64,000 bases of DNA. Source: Granulicella sp. 5B5. GTDB lineage: Bacteria > Acidobacteriota > Terriglobia > Terriglobales > Acidobacteriaceae. The position numbers and the translations under genes are program-made. A model generated the notes under the pieces. The model saw only the letters and a program-made list of their open reading frames with translations, was not told the origin of the DNA and did not search any database. The first letter of the stretch is position 1; every line of letters starts with the position of its first letter. The stretch spans positions 2,046,001 through 2,110,000 of the forward strand of contig NZ_CP046444.1 in the NCBI RefSeq assembly GCF_014083945.1, read 5' to 3'. Positions 25,710-30,100 of this stretch are shown piece by piece.

Positions 25710-26138
25710 ATGGACCGCAAAGCATCAGCCCTCTGGAACGGCGACCTCAAGTCCGGCCACGGCGCTATCACCACCCAAAGCAACACGCTCAAGGACACGC
25801 AGTACAGCTTCAAGAGCCGCTTTGAAGAAGGCACCGGCACCAACCCCGAAGAGTTGATCGCCGCCGCTCATGCCGGCTGCTACTCCATGGCCTTCGCCAA
25901 CATGCTCGCCACCGAAGGCTTCGTCGCCACCTCGGTCGACACCACCGCAGTCGTCACACTCGACCCCAGCACACCCGGCGGCCCCACCGTCACCAAGATC
26001 CACCTCATCAACAAGTCCTCCGTCCCCAATATCGACCAAGCCAAGTTTGAAGAGCTCGCAGCGAAGGCCAAGGCCGGTTGCCCCATCTCGCGCCTGCTCG
26101 CCGCCGCCACCATCACCCTGGACGCAACGCTCGCATAA
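25710..26138 (+). CDS. osmC: OsmC-family organic hydroperoxide reductase
   Basis: A 142-residue peroxiredoxin of the OsmC group that detoxifies organic hydroperoxides using two reactive cysteines. These are in HAGCYSMAFA (about residue 56) and KAGCPISRLL (about residue 128). The N-terminal start MDRKASALWNGDLKSG, then TNPEELIAAAHAGC is typical of OsmC rather than Ohr. A good AAGGAG precedes the ATG. A strong terminator ends the unit at 26161-26187. Confidence 0.93.
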   Translation: MDRKASALWNGDLKSGHGAITTQSNTLKDTQYSFKSRFEEGTGTNPEELIAAAHAGCYSMAFANMLATEGFVATSVDTTAVVTLDPSTPGGPTVTKIHLINKSSVPNIDQAKFEELAAKAKAGCPISRLLAAATITLDATLA

Positions 26139-26187: not shown

Positions 26188-26235
26188 GTGCCTGCTACCT
26201 AACCGTTACTCGAACCCCGCTGTCTAACCCGGCGA

Positions 26236-26850
26236 ATGGAGAATACAGAGCAAGAGGCGATACGGCGAATTCTCGCCGGTGATCGGGATGCGTTTCGCGT
26301 TCTGATGGACCGCCATCTGCCAGCGGTTCTCCGCATGACATACCGCATCACCGGTAATTCGGTCGATGCCGAGGAAGCTGCGCAGGAGGCTTTCCTGCTG
26401 GCTTATCAGAAACTGCCCGGCTTTCGTGAACAGGCAGCCTTCGGAACGTGGGTCTATCGCATCGCTATGAACTGTTCGTTCGATCTCGTCAAGCGCCGTA
26501 CCCGTGATCTCGGCTGGAACGCCGTGCCGCTCGATCCGGGTCCCACTGCTGACAACCTCGCCGTCTCGCGTGGCGCCTCTCCCGAAGCCGAGCTCCTCGC
26601 TGGCGAAGCGCTCCAGCGGCGCGAGCGCGCCATGCTTACGCTTACCCCCATGGAACGCACCGCCTTTGTCCTTCGCCATCTGGAAGAGCAGCCTGTACGC
26701 GACATCGCTGAAGCTCTGGGTGTACCCGTCAACTCCGCCAAGCAGGCCATCTTTCGGGCCGTCGCCAAGCTGCGTCGCGAACTCACGCCCCACTCCTCCA
26801 CGACCTCTGCAGATATCCGCCCACCCGTCTTCGTCAAGGAGTCCCGATGA
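26236..26850 (+). CDS. ECF-type RNA polymerase sigma factor
   Basis: A 204-residue group-4 sigma factor. Sigma region 2 covers about residues 22-90 (RHLPAVLRMTYRITGNSVDA, EEAAQEAFLLAYQKL, FGTWVYRIAMNCSFDLVKRR). Region 4 is about 130-185 (LTPMERTAFVLRHLEEQPVR then DIAEALGVPVNSAKQAIFRA), with the helix-turn-helix intact. It directs transcription of a small regulon. Its stop overlaps the start of the next gene as ATGA, the usual arrangement for a sigma/anti-sigma pair, and the partner here is unusual (see next entry). The ribosome site is weak. Confidence 0.95.
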   Translation: MENTEQEAIRRILAGDRDAFRVLMDRHLPAVLRMTYRITGNSVDAEEAAQEAFLLAYQKLPGFREQAAFGTWVYRIAMNCSFDLVKRRTRDLGWNAVPLDPGPTADNLAVSRGASPEAELLAGEALQRRERAMLTLTPMERTAFVLRHLEEQPVRDIAEALGVPVNSAKQAIFRAVAKLRRELTPHSSTTSADIRPPVFVKESR

Positions 26851-28184
26851 GCCCTCTCGACTGGTTCACCTCCGACCATTTCACCCAGGACGACCTCATC
26901 GCGTATCACCTGCACGATCTCTCCCCGCGCCGTGCGCGCAGGCTCCGCCGCGCTCTTGCCTCCAACACCGCGCTCGCTGCCGAATCCGCTGCGATTCTCG
27001 CAACACTCGAGGCCTTTCCGCGCGACGAGCCAACGCCCGCGCTCGACACGGCCGGGCTCGACCGCTATTGGGCAGCGCTGCGACCGCACCTCGCTGTACA
27101 GGTCGCACCTCCGGCGACAACTTTGCCACAACTGCACGCAGGCTGGATCAGACCGCTCCTCCTCGCCACCGGCGTCACGGCGTTCACTTCAGTTGGAATT
27201 GTGCTGGCGTCGTTGCATTGGAAGCACCAGCAACAGGACACGATGGCCGAAGCTCCACCCAGGCCGGCGCTTATCATCGCACCTCGCACACGGCCTGCGT
27301 TCCCAGACTCAGGGCACACGGTCGCTCACATCCTTCCATCGCTGACGAACGAACGACCTACAGCACCGCTGCCTGTTCTGCACGCGCAGCTTGAACCCTT
27401 ACTTGGCGGCAGCTGGATTGGCCCGCAATCCCCAATGACCGCCGCCTCGTTACCGCCAGCGGAATCGCTACCTATCGCAGTGAGCCCGCCAGTGCCATCA
27501 AGCACCACGTCGAACACTTTCCCTGTTTCACCTGCAGCATCAACAACTCTCAGTACAGCGCAGAACGTCAAGCACCACAACCATCGCGAAGATCTGACAC
27601 TAGGCATCTTCGGCAACCTCATCGCCGGCCGCTCTTGGAACACTGCAAGCACCGTGACTACGGGCAATGACTTCCACGCGCAAGGCGCTACACCGGCTGT
27701 CGGCGCACTGGCATCCTTCCATCAGCAGTTTTCACCCCTCTTCGGCTACAGAATTACCGGCGCCTACTCGCGGCCTACGCTCAGCTATAGCTATCAGGCA
27801 GCAGCCTCGACCGCCGCGCAACCCGGCTCCAGCACCATCACCACGCAGATCCTGGAGTTTTCAGGAACCTACACCGTGCTGGGCCCGCATACGCACCGCT
27901 TGCATACATCTGCCGAGGCTGGTGGCGGCCTGCTCATCTTTCATCCAGCGGAGCCGGGCACATCCATCAACTCCGTCGCGCGGCCGGTTGCCATTGCCGG
28001 TGTCGGCGCGGAGCTTGCAATCACCCAGCACCTGGGTCTGCGCGCTCAATACCGCGCCCTTGTCTTCGAGACCCCCGACTTTCACGATCCGAGCTTTCCT
28101 GTGCCCATCACCACAAGCGTCGTCCTCAGCAGCCAACCCAGCATCGGCATCACCTATCACCTCGGGAAATCACACTCCGATTAG
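26847..28184 (+). CDS. Anti-sigma factor fused to an outer-membrane-like beta-barrel
   Basis: A 445-residue protein translated with the sigma factor (ATGA overlap, AAGGAG upstream). Residues 1-95 resemble the helical anti-sigma domain (DDLIAYHLHDLSPRRARRLRR) but lack the Cys of the zinc form. Residues 102-124 are one transmembrane helix (RPLLLATGVTAFTSVGIVLA). Residues 125-248 are a Pro/Ser/Thr-rich linker ending KHHNHRE. Residues 249-445 are a beta-rich domain with alternating aromatic/hydrophobic strands, ending ITYHLGKSHSD. It shares motif after motif with the stand-alone barrel encoded next: SFHQQFSPLFGY against TFRQSFKPWLGY, and LGLRAQYR against LGMRAEYR. I infer a protein anchored in the inner membrane that carries a barrel destined for the outer membrane. 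Confidence 0.85.
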   Translation: MSPLDWFTSDHFTQDDLIAYHLHDLSPRRARRLRRALASNTALAAESAAILATLEAFPRDEPTPALDTAGLDRYWAALRPHLAVQVAPPATTLPQLHAGWIRPLLLATGVTAFTSVGIVLASLHWKHQQQDTMAEAPPRPALIIAPRTRPAFPDSGHTVAHILPSLTNERPTAPLPVLHAQLEPLLGGSWIGPQSPMTAASLPPAESLPIAVSPPVPSSTTSNTFPVSPAASTTLSTAQNVKHHNHREDLTLGIFGNLIAGRSWNTASTVTTGNDFHAQGATPAVGALASFHQQFSPLFGYRITGAYSRPTLSYSYQAAASTAAQPGSSTITTQILEFSGTYTVLGPHTHRLHTSAEAGGGLLIFHPAEPGTSINSVARPVAIAGVGAELAITQHLGLRAQYRALVFETPDFHDPSFPVPITTSVVLSSQPSIGITYHLGKSHSD

Positions 28185-28269: not shown

Positions 28270-29064
28270 GTGAATCGCCCTGCACCCATCGTCCTTGTTG
28301 GTCGTTCAATCCTCGCCGCGCTTGTCCTCATCTGCTTTTCAGCACAGGGCTGGTCGCAGACGTCCCCCTTCCTCGCGGCCTTCAGCTCATCCAACTCATC
28401 GTTGCCCAGCTCTGAAGCCCCAGCCCCGTCTCTGCCTCCGGCATCTGCGCTCATCGCAGGGCCGCACGTAGAGACCTCCTTGTCGCTCGGCGTGTTCCCT
28501 CAACTCACCGCCACACGCATCACCGCGCCCTCAAACGGTGTCTCCACCGAAAGCCTTACGCCCTCCGCGGGCGTGCTCGGCACCTTCCGCCAGAGCTTCA
28601 AACCCTGGCTCGGCTACGCGGTCAACATGGGCTACACGCGTGCCTCCGAACACTACACCGACAACGCCGGCACCGGTTCCGCCGGCACTGCCAGCAACGT
28701 ATCCATTCCAGCGAACGTATACGAGTTCAGCGCAAGCTACGTTACAGAAAAACACATCACGCCACGGCTTACCGCCTTCGCAGATGTGGGCGGAGGCATG
28801 ATCGTCTTCCTGCCCGTGCATCGTGGAGCCGACGCGATCAACTTCGTCCCGAGCCGCGCCTATGTCCCCTTCACCAACTACCGCCCCGCAGGCGTGGCAG
28901 GCGTCGGCTTCGACTACCGTCTGAACCGGCACCTCGGCATGCGCGCCGAGTACCGTGGCCAGCTCTACAAGTACGCCGACTACGGCAACGCCCTTCCGCG
29001 CAACTACACTGTCACCAGCGAGCCCACCCTCAGCCTCACGTACAACTTCGGTCCCAGCAAGTAG
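28270..29064 (+). CDS. Outer-membrane beta-barrel protein, paralogue of the anti-sigma barrel
   Basis: A 264-residue exported barrel. The start is GTG with TGGAG upstream and gives a signal peptide (IVLVGRSILAALVLICFSAQGWSQ). A Ser/Pro-rich spacer to about residue 60 is followed by a roughly 195-residue barrel with LSLGVFPQLTATRI, GTFRQSFKPWLGYAVNMGYT, FADVGGGMIVF, YRLNRHLGMRAEYRGQLY and the final PTLSLTYNFGPSK. It is clearly homologous to the C-terminal domain of the preceding anti-sigma fusion, so the two arose by duplication. It is probably in the same operon, ending at the terminator at 29076. Confidence 0.88.
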   Translation: MNRPAPIVLVGRSILAALVLICFSAQGWSQTSPFLAAFSSSNSSLPSSEAPAPSLPPASALIAGPHVETSLSLGVFPQLTATRITAPSNGVSTESLTPSAGVLGTFRQSFKPWLGYAVNMGYTRASEHYTDNAGTGSAGTASNVSIPANVYEFSASYVTEKHITPRLTAFADVGGGMIVFLPVHRGADAINFVPSRAYVPFTNYRPAGVAGVGFDYRLNRHLGMRAEYRGQLYKYADYGNALPRNYTVTSEPTLSLTYNFGPSK

Positions 29065-29107: not shown

Positions 29108-29135
29108 TCTATCCTCCACACTCTATCTCCCGCCT
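29108..29135 (+). repeat. Heptanucleotide-like tract after the operon terminator
   Basis: Units TCTATCC, TCCACAC, TCTATCT, then CCCGCC, in the same position relative to the terminator as the tracts at 14417 and 33008. It is degenerate. The CDF gene stop on the other strand overlaps its end. Confidence 0.5.
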
Positions 29136-30100
29136 TAGTGTGCGTGGCTATGGCTGTGGCTATGCCCATGATGATGGTGCGAGTGCCCATCGATCACATC
29201 CGGCTTCGGCGGCGAGCTGCAACCATCCACCGTCGGGCAGTCGGTGATCTCCACCTGGATCGTCGAGTGTTGAATCCCGTAGTGGTCGCGCAGTTCGTGG
29301 TTCATCCGTTGCAGCAGCTCTTCGCACTCGGCCAGCTGCATCTCGATCACCTGCACATGGCAGGCCAGCGCATGGCTCTGCGACGTCAAGCTCCACACAT
29401 GCAGGTCATGCACATTTACCACACCATCCACACTCTGCATGGCCGCGCGAATCTCCGCCAGGTCGATGCCCCGCGGCGTGCCCTCCAGCAGGATGTGCAG
29501 CGTTTCCTTCACAATGCTCCACGAACTCAGCAGGATCATCACCGCAATAATCACCGACAGCAGCGGATCGATCCACTGCATATGCGTCAGCGCAATCAGC
29601 ACACCGCCAACAATCACCGCCGCGGTCGAAAGCGTATCGCCGAGCATGTGCAGAAACACACTGCGAATATTCACATCCCCGGAAAACTTCCAGAGCAGTC
29701 CAGCGATCACACCATTCATCAAAACACCAGCGGCAGCCACCATCATCATCAGGTGCGGTTCCACCATCACCGGATGAAAGAACCGCTGCGCCGCTGTCAC
29801 CAGAATCCACACCGCCAGCACCATCAGGCTCAGCGCATTCACAAACCCTGCCAGCACCCCGGCTCGCTGATACCCAAAGGTTCGCTGATCGGTCGCCGGC
29901 CGGGTCTGCAACCACACCGCAACGAAGCTCAGCCCCAACGCCGCAAAGTCTGACACGTTATGCCCAGCCTCGGAGAGCAGCGCTAGCGAGTGCGCCCGCA
30001 ACCCGAAGAACAACGTCGCCGCGATATACAGCGCCGTCAACGCCAGCGAAAACTTCAAAATCCGCTGCATCCCACCGCTCGGCTTCGCCTGCATGTGCAT
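29135..30100 (-). CDS. Cation diffusion facilitator (CDF) metal exporter
   Basis: A 321-residue inner-membrane antiporter that exports Zn2+ or a similar metal. It has six membrane segments. The metal site is read from SEAGHNVSDFAALGLSFV (HxxxD) and FLHMLGDTLSTAAVIVGG. A cytoplasmic C-terminal domain follows (VNVHDLHVWSLTSQSHALAC). The extreme C-terminus is His-rich (DGHSHHHHGHSHSHSHAH), probably for metal sensing. ZitB/CzcD-type zinc specificity is the best guess. It converges on the sigma/barrel operon. The start is ATG with a second ATG two codons later. Confidence 0.93.
   Translation of the reverse strand: MHMQAKPSGGMQRILKFSLALTALYIAATLFFGLRAHSLALLSEAGHNVSDFAALGLSFVAVWLQTRPATDQRTFGYQRAGVLAGFVNALSLMVLAVWILVTAAQRFFHPVMVEPHLMMMVAAAGVLMNGVIAGLLWKFSGDVNIRSVFLHMLGDTLSTAAVIVGGVLIALTHMQWIDPLLSVIIAVMILLSSWSIVKETLHILLEGTPRGIDLAEIRAAMQSVDGVVNVHDLHVWSLTSQSHALACHVQVIEMQLAECEELLQRMNHELRDHYGIQHSTIQVEITDCPTVDGCSSPPKPDVIDGHSHHHHGHSHSHSHAH

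Follow-up and report, generated by a model that had tools for sequence, protein, structure and literature searches.

We investigated how a gene for an anti-sigma-like protein came to end in a predicted outer membrane barrel, with a second, free barrel gene directly behind it. The locus lies in the window, which is the whole 64,000-nucleotide stretch of Granulicella sp. 5B5 analyzed here, taken from a genome of 3.93 Mb. Judged from the ORF coordinates, it is a tight row of three genes on the forward strand, comprising an ECF sigma factor gene, the fused gene (A), and the free barrel gene (B). The initial annotation had offered two origins for the row: capture of a barrel domain by the anti-sigma gene, or budding of the free copy from the fusion. 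The features are listed in Table 1. We take the two flanking genes to be an OsmC-like gene and a cation-diffusion-facilitator (CDF)-like transporter gene, and used them as anchors of the genomic junction.

Table 1. Coordinates of the sigma–fusion–barrel operon and its flanking genes in the window.
Feature	Position	Strand	Basis or remark
OsmC-like flanking gene (presumed), outside the module	25710..26138	+	Junction anchor
Candidate autoregulatory ECF promoter, TAACC-N16-TGTCTA	26200..26226	+	9 bases before the sigma ATG
ECF-type sigma factor, 204 aa	26236..26850	+	Pfam Sigma70_r2 (9.7e-16), Sigma70_r4_2 (3.4e-13)
A, fused anti-sigma-like/outer-membrane-barrel protein, 445 aa	26847..28184	+	ORF, predicted model
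A residues 1–90, anti-sigma-like helical domain, HxxxCxxC absent	26847..27116	+	NCBIfam NF052375, relatives
A residues 104–122, hydrophobic TM segment (predicted)	27156..27212	+	Mean hydropathy 1.89 over 19 residues
A residues 123–248, tether rich in Pro/Ser/Thr/Ala	27213..27590	+	126 residues, 48% P+S+T+A
A residues 249–439, putative captured barrel	27591..28163	+	Model, PDB matches
B, predicted free barrel, 264 aa, signal-like N-terminal helix	28270..29064	+	GTG start; AlphaFold2 model
CDF-like transporter, flanking gene (presumed)	29135..30100	-	Junction anchor

The sigma factor contains sigma-70 regions 2 and 4 in one short protein, as ECF sigma factors do, and scored 90.1 bits against the NCBIfam sigma70-ECF model (cut-off 42.9). 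The next best sigma factor of the window genome was 38% identical to it. Its gene overlaps that of A by 4 bases, and B starts 85 bases past the end of A. The N-terminal domain of A matched the N-termini of ordinary anti-sigma proteins and the NCBIfam model NF052375 (anti-sigma factor E) with an E value of 2.3e-6 (27.8 bits, cut-off 100); the same model matched one ordinary protein (P0004) with an E value of 3.4e-9. No NCBIfam anti-sigma model matched the fusion of genome G116, even at an E value of 1. Using Pfam, no anti-sigma domain was found in A, the G157 fusion, or P0004, and zf-HC2 was observed at a sub-threshold level (E 0.15–0.18) in two ordinary anti-sigma proteins.

In the structure model of A (mean pLDDT 55.9), a helix at residues 101–128 covers the TM segment, and the pLDDT is below 50 for residues 78–244, the TM segment included. 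Positive residues flank the segment on both sides in the sequence, and the topology was therefore assumed from the order of the parts. The modeled barrel of A has eight strands, one of them broken, with OmpA as the best PDB match. The model of B (mean pLDDT 65.2) has a leading helix at residues 7–29 and eight strands between residues 67 and 260. Pfam OmpA_membrane matched B just under its cut-off (E 7.5e-4, 19.7 bits, cut-off 21) and A weakly. Foldseek grouped both barrels with the OmpA transmembrane domain, Ail, OmpX, and NspA, so that eight antiparallel strands in an OmpA-type fold are predicted for both. These known proteins are eight-stranded barrels like the models of A and B; however, the identity in the Foldseek matches was 9–18%, and the barrel of A sits behind an anti-sigma-like part. 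On these models, for both the topology and the folds, a single protein of some soil Acidobacteria appears to span the distance between the cell surface and the transcription apparatus.

We compared the two barrels of the window genome with each other. The A barrel and B were 34% identical (79 bits, E 6.4e-22) and were mutual best paralogues, the next scores being 44 bits for B and 49 bits for A. Compared with 200 shuffled versions of B, A reached at most 22.7 bits. The sequence comparison thus confirmed that the barrels are homologous well beyond chance. The initial annotation had taken three short motif pairs, occurring in the same order in both barrels, as a sign of tandem duplication. All three pairs were found in the translations in that order. 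However, WLGY, R..YRG, and P..S..Y.F did not vary when B was aligned with 8 further free barrels, and for 4 of these (G171, G052, G162, and G165) the stretch examined contained neither a sigma nor an anti-sigma match; a strict motif expression matched 15 of 71 non-operon barrels. The motif order therefore reflects family membership, not tandem duplication, and we rejected it as proof of the latter. Beyond the window genome, in a ranking of 89 barrels with self counted, B was 18th for A and A was 17th for B. In BLAST comparisons, each of the 8 unlinked free barrels gave B a higher score than A did, and at least 7 of the 8 gave A a higher score than B did.

The relationship of the barrels was examined in three trees: a quick one of 78 barrels, a careful one of 32 rows, and an extended one of 36 rows. 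The first two contained 6 fused barrels (FUS), 6 free neighbors (FREE, G171 counted), and 3 unlinked free barrels (OTH). Each set formed one clade, with support of 100 (78 barrels) and 100/100 (32 rows) for FUS, 94 and 96/95 for FREE, and 98 and 99/96 for OTH, and the 15 barrels together were set apart from the remaining ones (98; 100/99). In the extended tree, the 9 fused barrels of eight genomes grouped in a single clade with a long stem (100/100), and 8 of the 9 free neighbors formed another (99/99). FREE_G277 fell outside the latter, and its placement inside was not rejected (AU p 0.394). The 8 unlinked barrels of this tree were not monophyletic in the best topology; their monophyly was likewise not rejected (p 0.359).

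None of the three possible groupings was rejected (AU p 0.26–0.45). FUS+FREE gave AU p values of 0.448 (32 rows) and 0.382 (36 rows) and was the best tree in none of the three sets, FUS+OTH gave 0.255 and 0.297, respectively, and FREE+OTH appeared in the best tree at 84 (78 barrels) and 71/6 (32 rows), with an AU p value of 0.299 in the 36 rows. Sisterhood of the two barrels, for which the initial annotation had proposed a phylogeny as the check, therefore neither passed nor failed. As to the claim of tandem duplicates as a whole, the homology stood; the motifs proved to be family-wide, and the FUS+FREE grouping was neither best nor rejected.

Rows of three related barrels were observed at three places (G012:C1 270–2184, G104:C84 51763–53875, and G044:C11 175171–177934), and local duplication of barrel genes thus occurs elsewhere in the family. 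Tandem duplication within the operon, in which a free barrel beside the sigma pair was copied and the nearer copy was fused so that A and B are true sisters, is consistent with such rows, with the two FUS+FREE p values, and with the adjacent free barrel present in 8 of the 9 fused operons. On the other hand, it would have to accommodate a FUS+FREE grouping that is never the best tree, the higher BLAST scores of both A and B toward unlinked barrels, and the lack of a barrel next to any of the 24 ordinary operons described below. We give this origin somewhat less than an even chance. Each barrel of the pair grouped with its counterpart in other genomes, which indicates that the pair is old. The A/B split is older than the operon's spread across three genus codes and is thus not recent. 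FREE_G000 preferred relatives other than those of its sigma factor (AU p 0.06); together with the position of FREE_G277, this suggests that the third slot may have been exchanged.

To determine the direction of change, we compared the fused operons with operons of orthologous sigma factors. Orthologues, taken at E values up to 1e-35, were present at 9 loci in 8 of 28 genus genomes and in 23 of 150 family genomes, two of which had been counted before. This gave 24 operons outside the fused set, hereafter called ordinary, and 33 together with the 9 fused ones. The stretch examined was approximately 1.5 kb on each side or less for 18 of the ordinary operons and 12–13 kb in all for the other 6. 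By eye, an anti-sigma-like ORF, truncated in a few cases, lay directly behind the sigma gene in 23 of the 24; in the remaining one (L131) another ORF was picked, but the locus matches the ordinary tail. No barrel was found in the stretch examined of any ordinary operon. A HEAT/TPR gene match was observed in 22 of the 24 and an ordinary tail match in 21, the HEAT and TPR assignments being made by Pfam on four examples, whereas none of the 9 fused operons gave a HEAT or ordinary tail match. Two HEAT-repeat genes, the first with TPR, were seen behind the anti-sigma gene of ordinary operons (L098 6548–8752; L084 6706–8735).

In the sigma tree, the 9 fused-operon genes and 3 ordinary genes of the same genus formed a clade (100/98) nested in the ordinary ones. 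The census and this nesting, together with the free state of the family's other barrels, indicate that an ordinary anti-sigma factor acquired a barrel. On these sequence comparisons the direction of change is clear: a free barrel was captured by an ordinary anti-sigma gene, in agreement with the domain capture envisaged by the initial annotation. The fused sigma genes were monophyletic in the best tree with weak support (54/62), so that two captures of related barrels are possible.

The opposite route, in which B budded from the fusion, would suit the position of B directly behind A. It was disfavored by the trees, since the FREE barrels fell outside the 100/100 fused clade with its own long stem (32 and 36 rows), by the family-wide occurrence of free barrels, with a match to B in 88 of 150 genomes, and by genomes G171 and G278, in which a free barrel lies between the OsmC-like and CDF-like genes without the sigma pair. 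We regard budding as very improbable. The initial annotation had suggested that genomes with a free barrel next to an ordinary anti-sigma gene would reveal the direction. No such neighborhood was found in the stretch examined of the 24 operons; instead, free barrels without the sigma pair (G171 and G278) and a fusion without a free barrel (G116) were observed.

The anti-sigma parts themselves were also compared. The ordinary proteins have their own tail of 133–170 residues past the TM segment (21 measured). The TM segment and a tether of 126–163 residues with 43–62% P+S+T+A were kept in all 8 complete fusions. The zinc motif HxxxCxxC, which is the feature of zinc anti-sigma (ZAS) proteins, was missing in all 8 and, by eye, in the partial N-terminus of the fusion on contig C97 of G159, and the fusions therefore lack the ZAS feature. 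It was present in 16 of the 21 ordinary proteins measured (among L119–L143). The five ordinary proteins that lack it are three of the window's genus and those of G031 and G095, so that loss of the motif probably preceded gain of the barrel.

We consider it highly probable that the operon was rebuilt by swapping the anti-sigma factor's own tail for a captured barrel, with the sigma factor and promoter kept. Its traces, demonstrated in the sequences, are the gene row, the homologies, the tail swap, the nesting, and the conservation of the promoter. Ordinary and fused operons are alike in their orthologous sigma factors, in the related N-terminus and TM segment of the anti-sigma protein, and in the promoter (8 ordinary operons aligned). 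They differ in that the ordinary anti-sigma protein retains its own tail and is followed by HEAT/TPR-type genes, whereas the fused operons have barrels. A sigma/anti-sigma operon of Acidobacteriota would thus have been rebuilt, most likely once: the anti-sigma factor would have retained its cytoplasmic sigma-binding domain and membrane segment and lost its periplasmic tail, the HEAT/TPR genes behind it would have been lost, and a free OmpA-like barrel of the family-wide kind would have been gained. The product would connect the outer membrane with the sigma factor in a single protein.

Full-length fusions were found in at least 8 of 398 family genomes when the best 4 candidates per genome were scored. 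They span three genus codes, g1 (G000, G116, G157, G159, and G160), g32 (G277), and g35 (G305 and G383), and the relatives that carry names are Granulicella, Terriglobus, and unclassified Acidobacteria MAGs. Among 299 class genomes (best 5 candidates per genome), no fusion was found beyond the family, and the 3 outside-family matches were each a barrel only. A search of plasmids gave no match. Twelve long barrel ORFs listed among L001–L104, some of them one gene in two or three loci, had been candidates for further fusions and were rejected by eye as stop-to-stop extensions. The sigma gene adjoins the fusion in all 9 fused operons, one of which is split over two contigs. Genome G159 has two sigma–fusion–barrel operons (L091; L092/L093), including the split one, whose fusion we infer from two contig ends (C97/C23). 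The other G159 operon grouped with that of G383, which belongs to another genus, in both barrels and in the sigma factor, which suggests transfer as a module.

Eight of the 9 fused operons have the adjacent free barrel as their third gene. In the exception, G116, no adjacent free barrel and no convincing remnant of B were found on the contig of the fusion. In G171, a relative of B (64–67%) lies between the same neighbor genes, and the sigma orthologue is absent; as this barrel nests with the B of the window, loss of the sigma pair is the simpler reading. A lone free barrel also occupies the window's junction, between OsmC-like and CDF-like genes, in G278 of another genus (L186 6869–7714). Of 45 CDF-like loci examined, including four with less than 500 bases of sequence next to the gene, 19 had an OsmC-like gene within approximately 1.5 kb and 4 had a barrel there (G000, G157, G171, and G278).

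We examined the candidate promoter to assess what the sigma factor may transcribe. TAAC[C/A]-N15/16-TGTCTA precedes the sigma gene in all 17 operons aligned (9 fused and 8 ordinary). The exact pattern was found in 20 of the 33 operons, the remaining 13 being ordinary ones. The window contains a single match, and shuffles gave a mean of 0.03. Because the promoter ends so close to the ATG, the sigma mRNA may have almost no leader. Scanning the operon for sigma-70 promoters gave no hit. Terminator-like sites numbered 3 against 1.8 expected and were informative only in that the interval separating A from B contained none.

In the window genome, TAACC-N15/16-TGTCTA gave 3 exact sites, the one before the sigma gene included, and the reversed-pattern control gave 1. 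One site (L239, 1501–1526) lies 28 bases before an ATG of msrP (1555–2514), whose product scored 424 bits against the MsrP equivalog model (cut-off 207). Another (L238, 1501–1526) lies 19 bases before an ATG of a DUF1223 gene (1546–2379); another in-frame ATG of this gene occurs earlier, 1 base past the promoter match. From the base composition we estimate that approximately 1–2 matches are expected in the genome by chance, so that it is the position before genes that supports msrP and the DUF1223 gene as targets; assuming approximately 3500 genes, a random match would fall at such a short distance ahead of a correctly oriented gene in approximately 2% of cases, also by our estimate. In the available parts of two reports on ECF16 systems, Caulobacter SigF and Brucella BcrS, YedY/MsrP is likewise sigma-controlled: the MsrP-type YedY of Caulobacter is under sigma control, being only partly SigF-dependent, and Brucella has a sigma-controlled MsrP-type reductase, MsrP being described as repairing oxidized envelope proteins (PMC3511200, PMC8315932). 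The same parts report GTAACC as the -35 element of Caulobacter SigF; the negative regulator described there, a DUF1109 protein, has six TM regions, and no barrel is mentioned (PMC3511200, PMC8315932). By analogy with these precedents, and given the promoter matches before msrP and the DUF1223 gene, envelope oxidative stress is the favored class of signal, as the matches suggest.

For sigma binding, the signal, proteolysis, and the role of B, we infer the following working, which we put forward tentatively. The tethered barrel would lie folded in the outer membrane, with the sigma factor retained at the inner membrane. Damage, probably oxidative, to the outer membrane or to the assembly of barrels would disturb or expose the barrel or the tether, upon which A may be cut by regulated proteolysis, by analogy with other anti-sigma systems, and the sigma factor released. 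The released factor would then transcribe its own operon, renewing the sensor and the free barrel, and probably also msrP and the DUF1223 gene. A different possibility is that A does not work as a dual-membrane protein, the barrel being cleaved off or both parts acting apart; the long tether and its low model confidence would suit cleavage, but fusion and tether have been kept in 8 of 8 complete fusions across three genus codes, and we consider this unlikely.

B may be more than an output of the regulon, namely a sensing partner that pairs with the barrel of A or competes with it for ligand or assembly. B stands behind A in 8 of the 9 fused operons and, by its first start codon, overlaps A or begins at most 86 bases past its end, and the window has no terminator-like site between the two. 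Against such a role, the G116 fusion has no adjacent B, the other two G116 matches to B being 29–30% identical, and G171 has B and no sigma orthologue; neither gene, therefore, always needs the other. A partnership is conceivable, and we would not call it probable.

The predicted layout of A resembles that of the Dma factors of Bacteroides thetaiotaomicron, which, in the available part of their description, are stated to occur solely in Bacteroidota and have an N-terminal anti-sigma domain, a TM helix, a long disordered tether, and a C-terminal beta-barrel (PMC13088901). Dma1 and Dma2 are described there as having cognate sigma factors, with das2 beside dma2 (PMC13088901), and A likewise lies beside its sigma gene in 9 of 9 fused operons. 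A thus combines the sigma-binding domain, TM segment, tether, and barrel in one protein by prediction. It differs from Dma in its host, since the fused operons occur in Granulicella, Terriglobus, and Acidobacteria MAGs; in the twin free barrel that usually follows it; and in its candidate targets, msrP and the DUF1223 gene. Dma factors are described as controlling vesiculation through their sigma factor. The partner sigma factors of Dma belong to group ECF21; the sigma factor here scored 60.9 against NCBIfam TIGR02985 (Sig70_bacteroi1), below the cut-off of 126.4. Both halves of A, moreover, are related to local proteins, one to an ordinary anti-sigma factor and the other to free barrels within this family, from which we conclude that its origin is probably independent of Dma. 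We describe A as Dma-like in its modeled anatomy, likened by description rather than by sequence, and, given its host, do not file it as a Dma member. In TonB-receptor signaling, the state of an outer membrane receptor is likewise passed to an inner membrane anti-sigma factor and an ECF sigma factor; however, receptor and anti-sigma factor are two proteins in the part of the source available, and A is one (PMC5411451). Among the papers listed by a search of the literature, which covered few subscription papers, none concerned an anti-sigma/barrel protein from Acidobacteriota, and the available part of PMC8999054 contained no barrel case.

The Dma-type layout has apparently been reinvented in Acidobacteriota. 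In our assessment, one-piece anti-sigma factors reaching from the outer membrane to RNA polymerase probably arose there a second time, by the swap of the tail and the HEAT/TPR genes for a barrel with promoter and sigma factor unchanged, and the module of the sensor and usually a twin barrel then spread between genera. Dma factors have been described as confined to Bacteroidota, and the literature searched, part of which was available only in excerpt, gave no account of their origin. Here, a single bacterial family contains ordinary anti-sigma factors, free barrels, and the fused protein, together with a conserved promoter. The occurrence of ordinary and fused forms in near relatives makes sensing by a tethered barrel testable by tail swaps. 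It also suggests that a sensor and the downstream genes of its operon can be replaced together while the sigma specificity is kept. If true, this history would show how a dual-membrane switch can be built, with the states before and after and that of the donor type preserved side by side.
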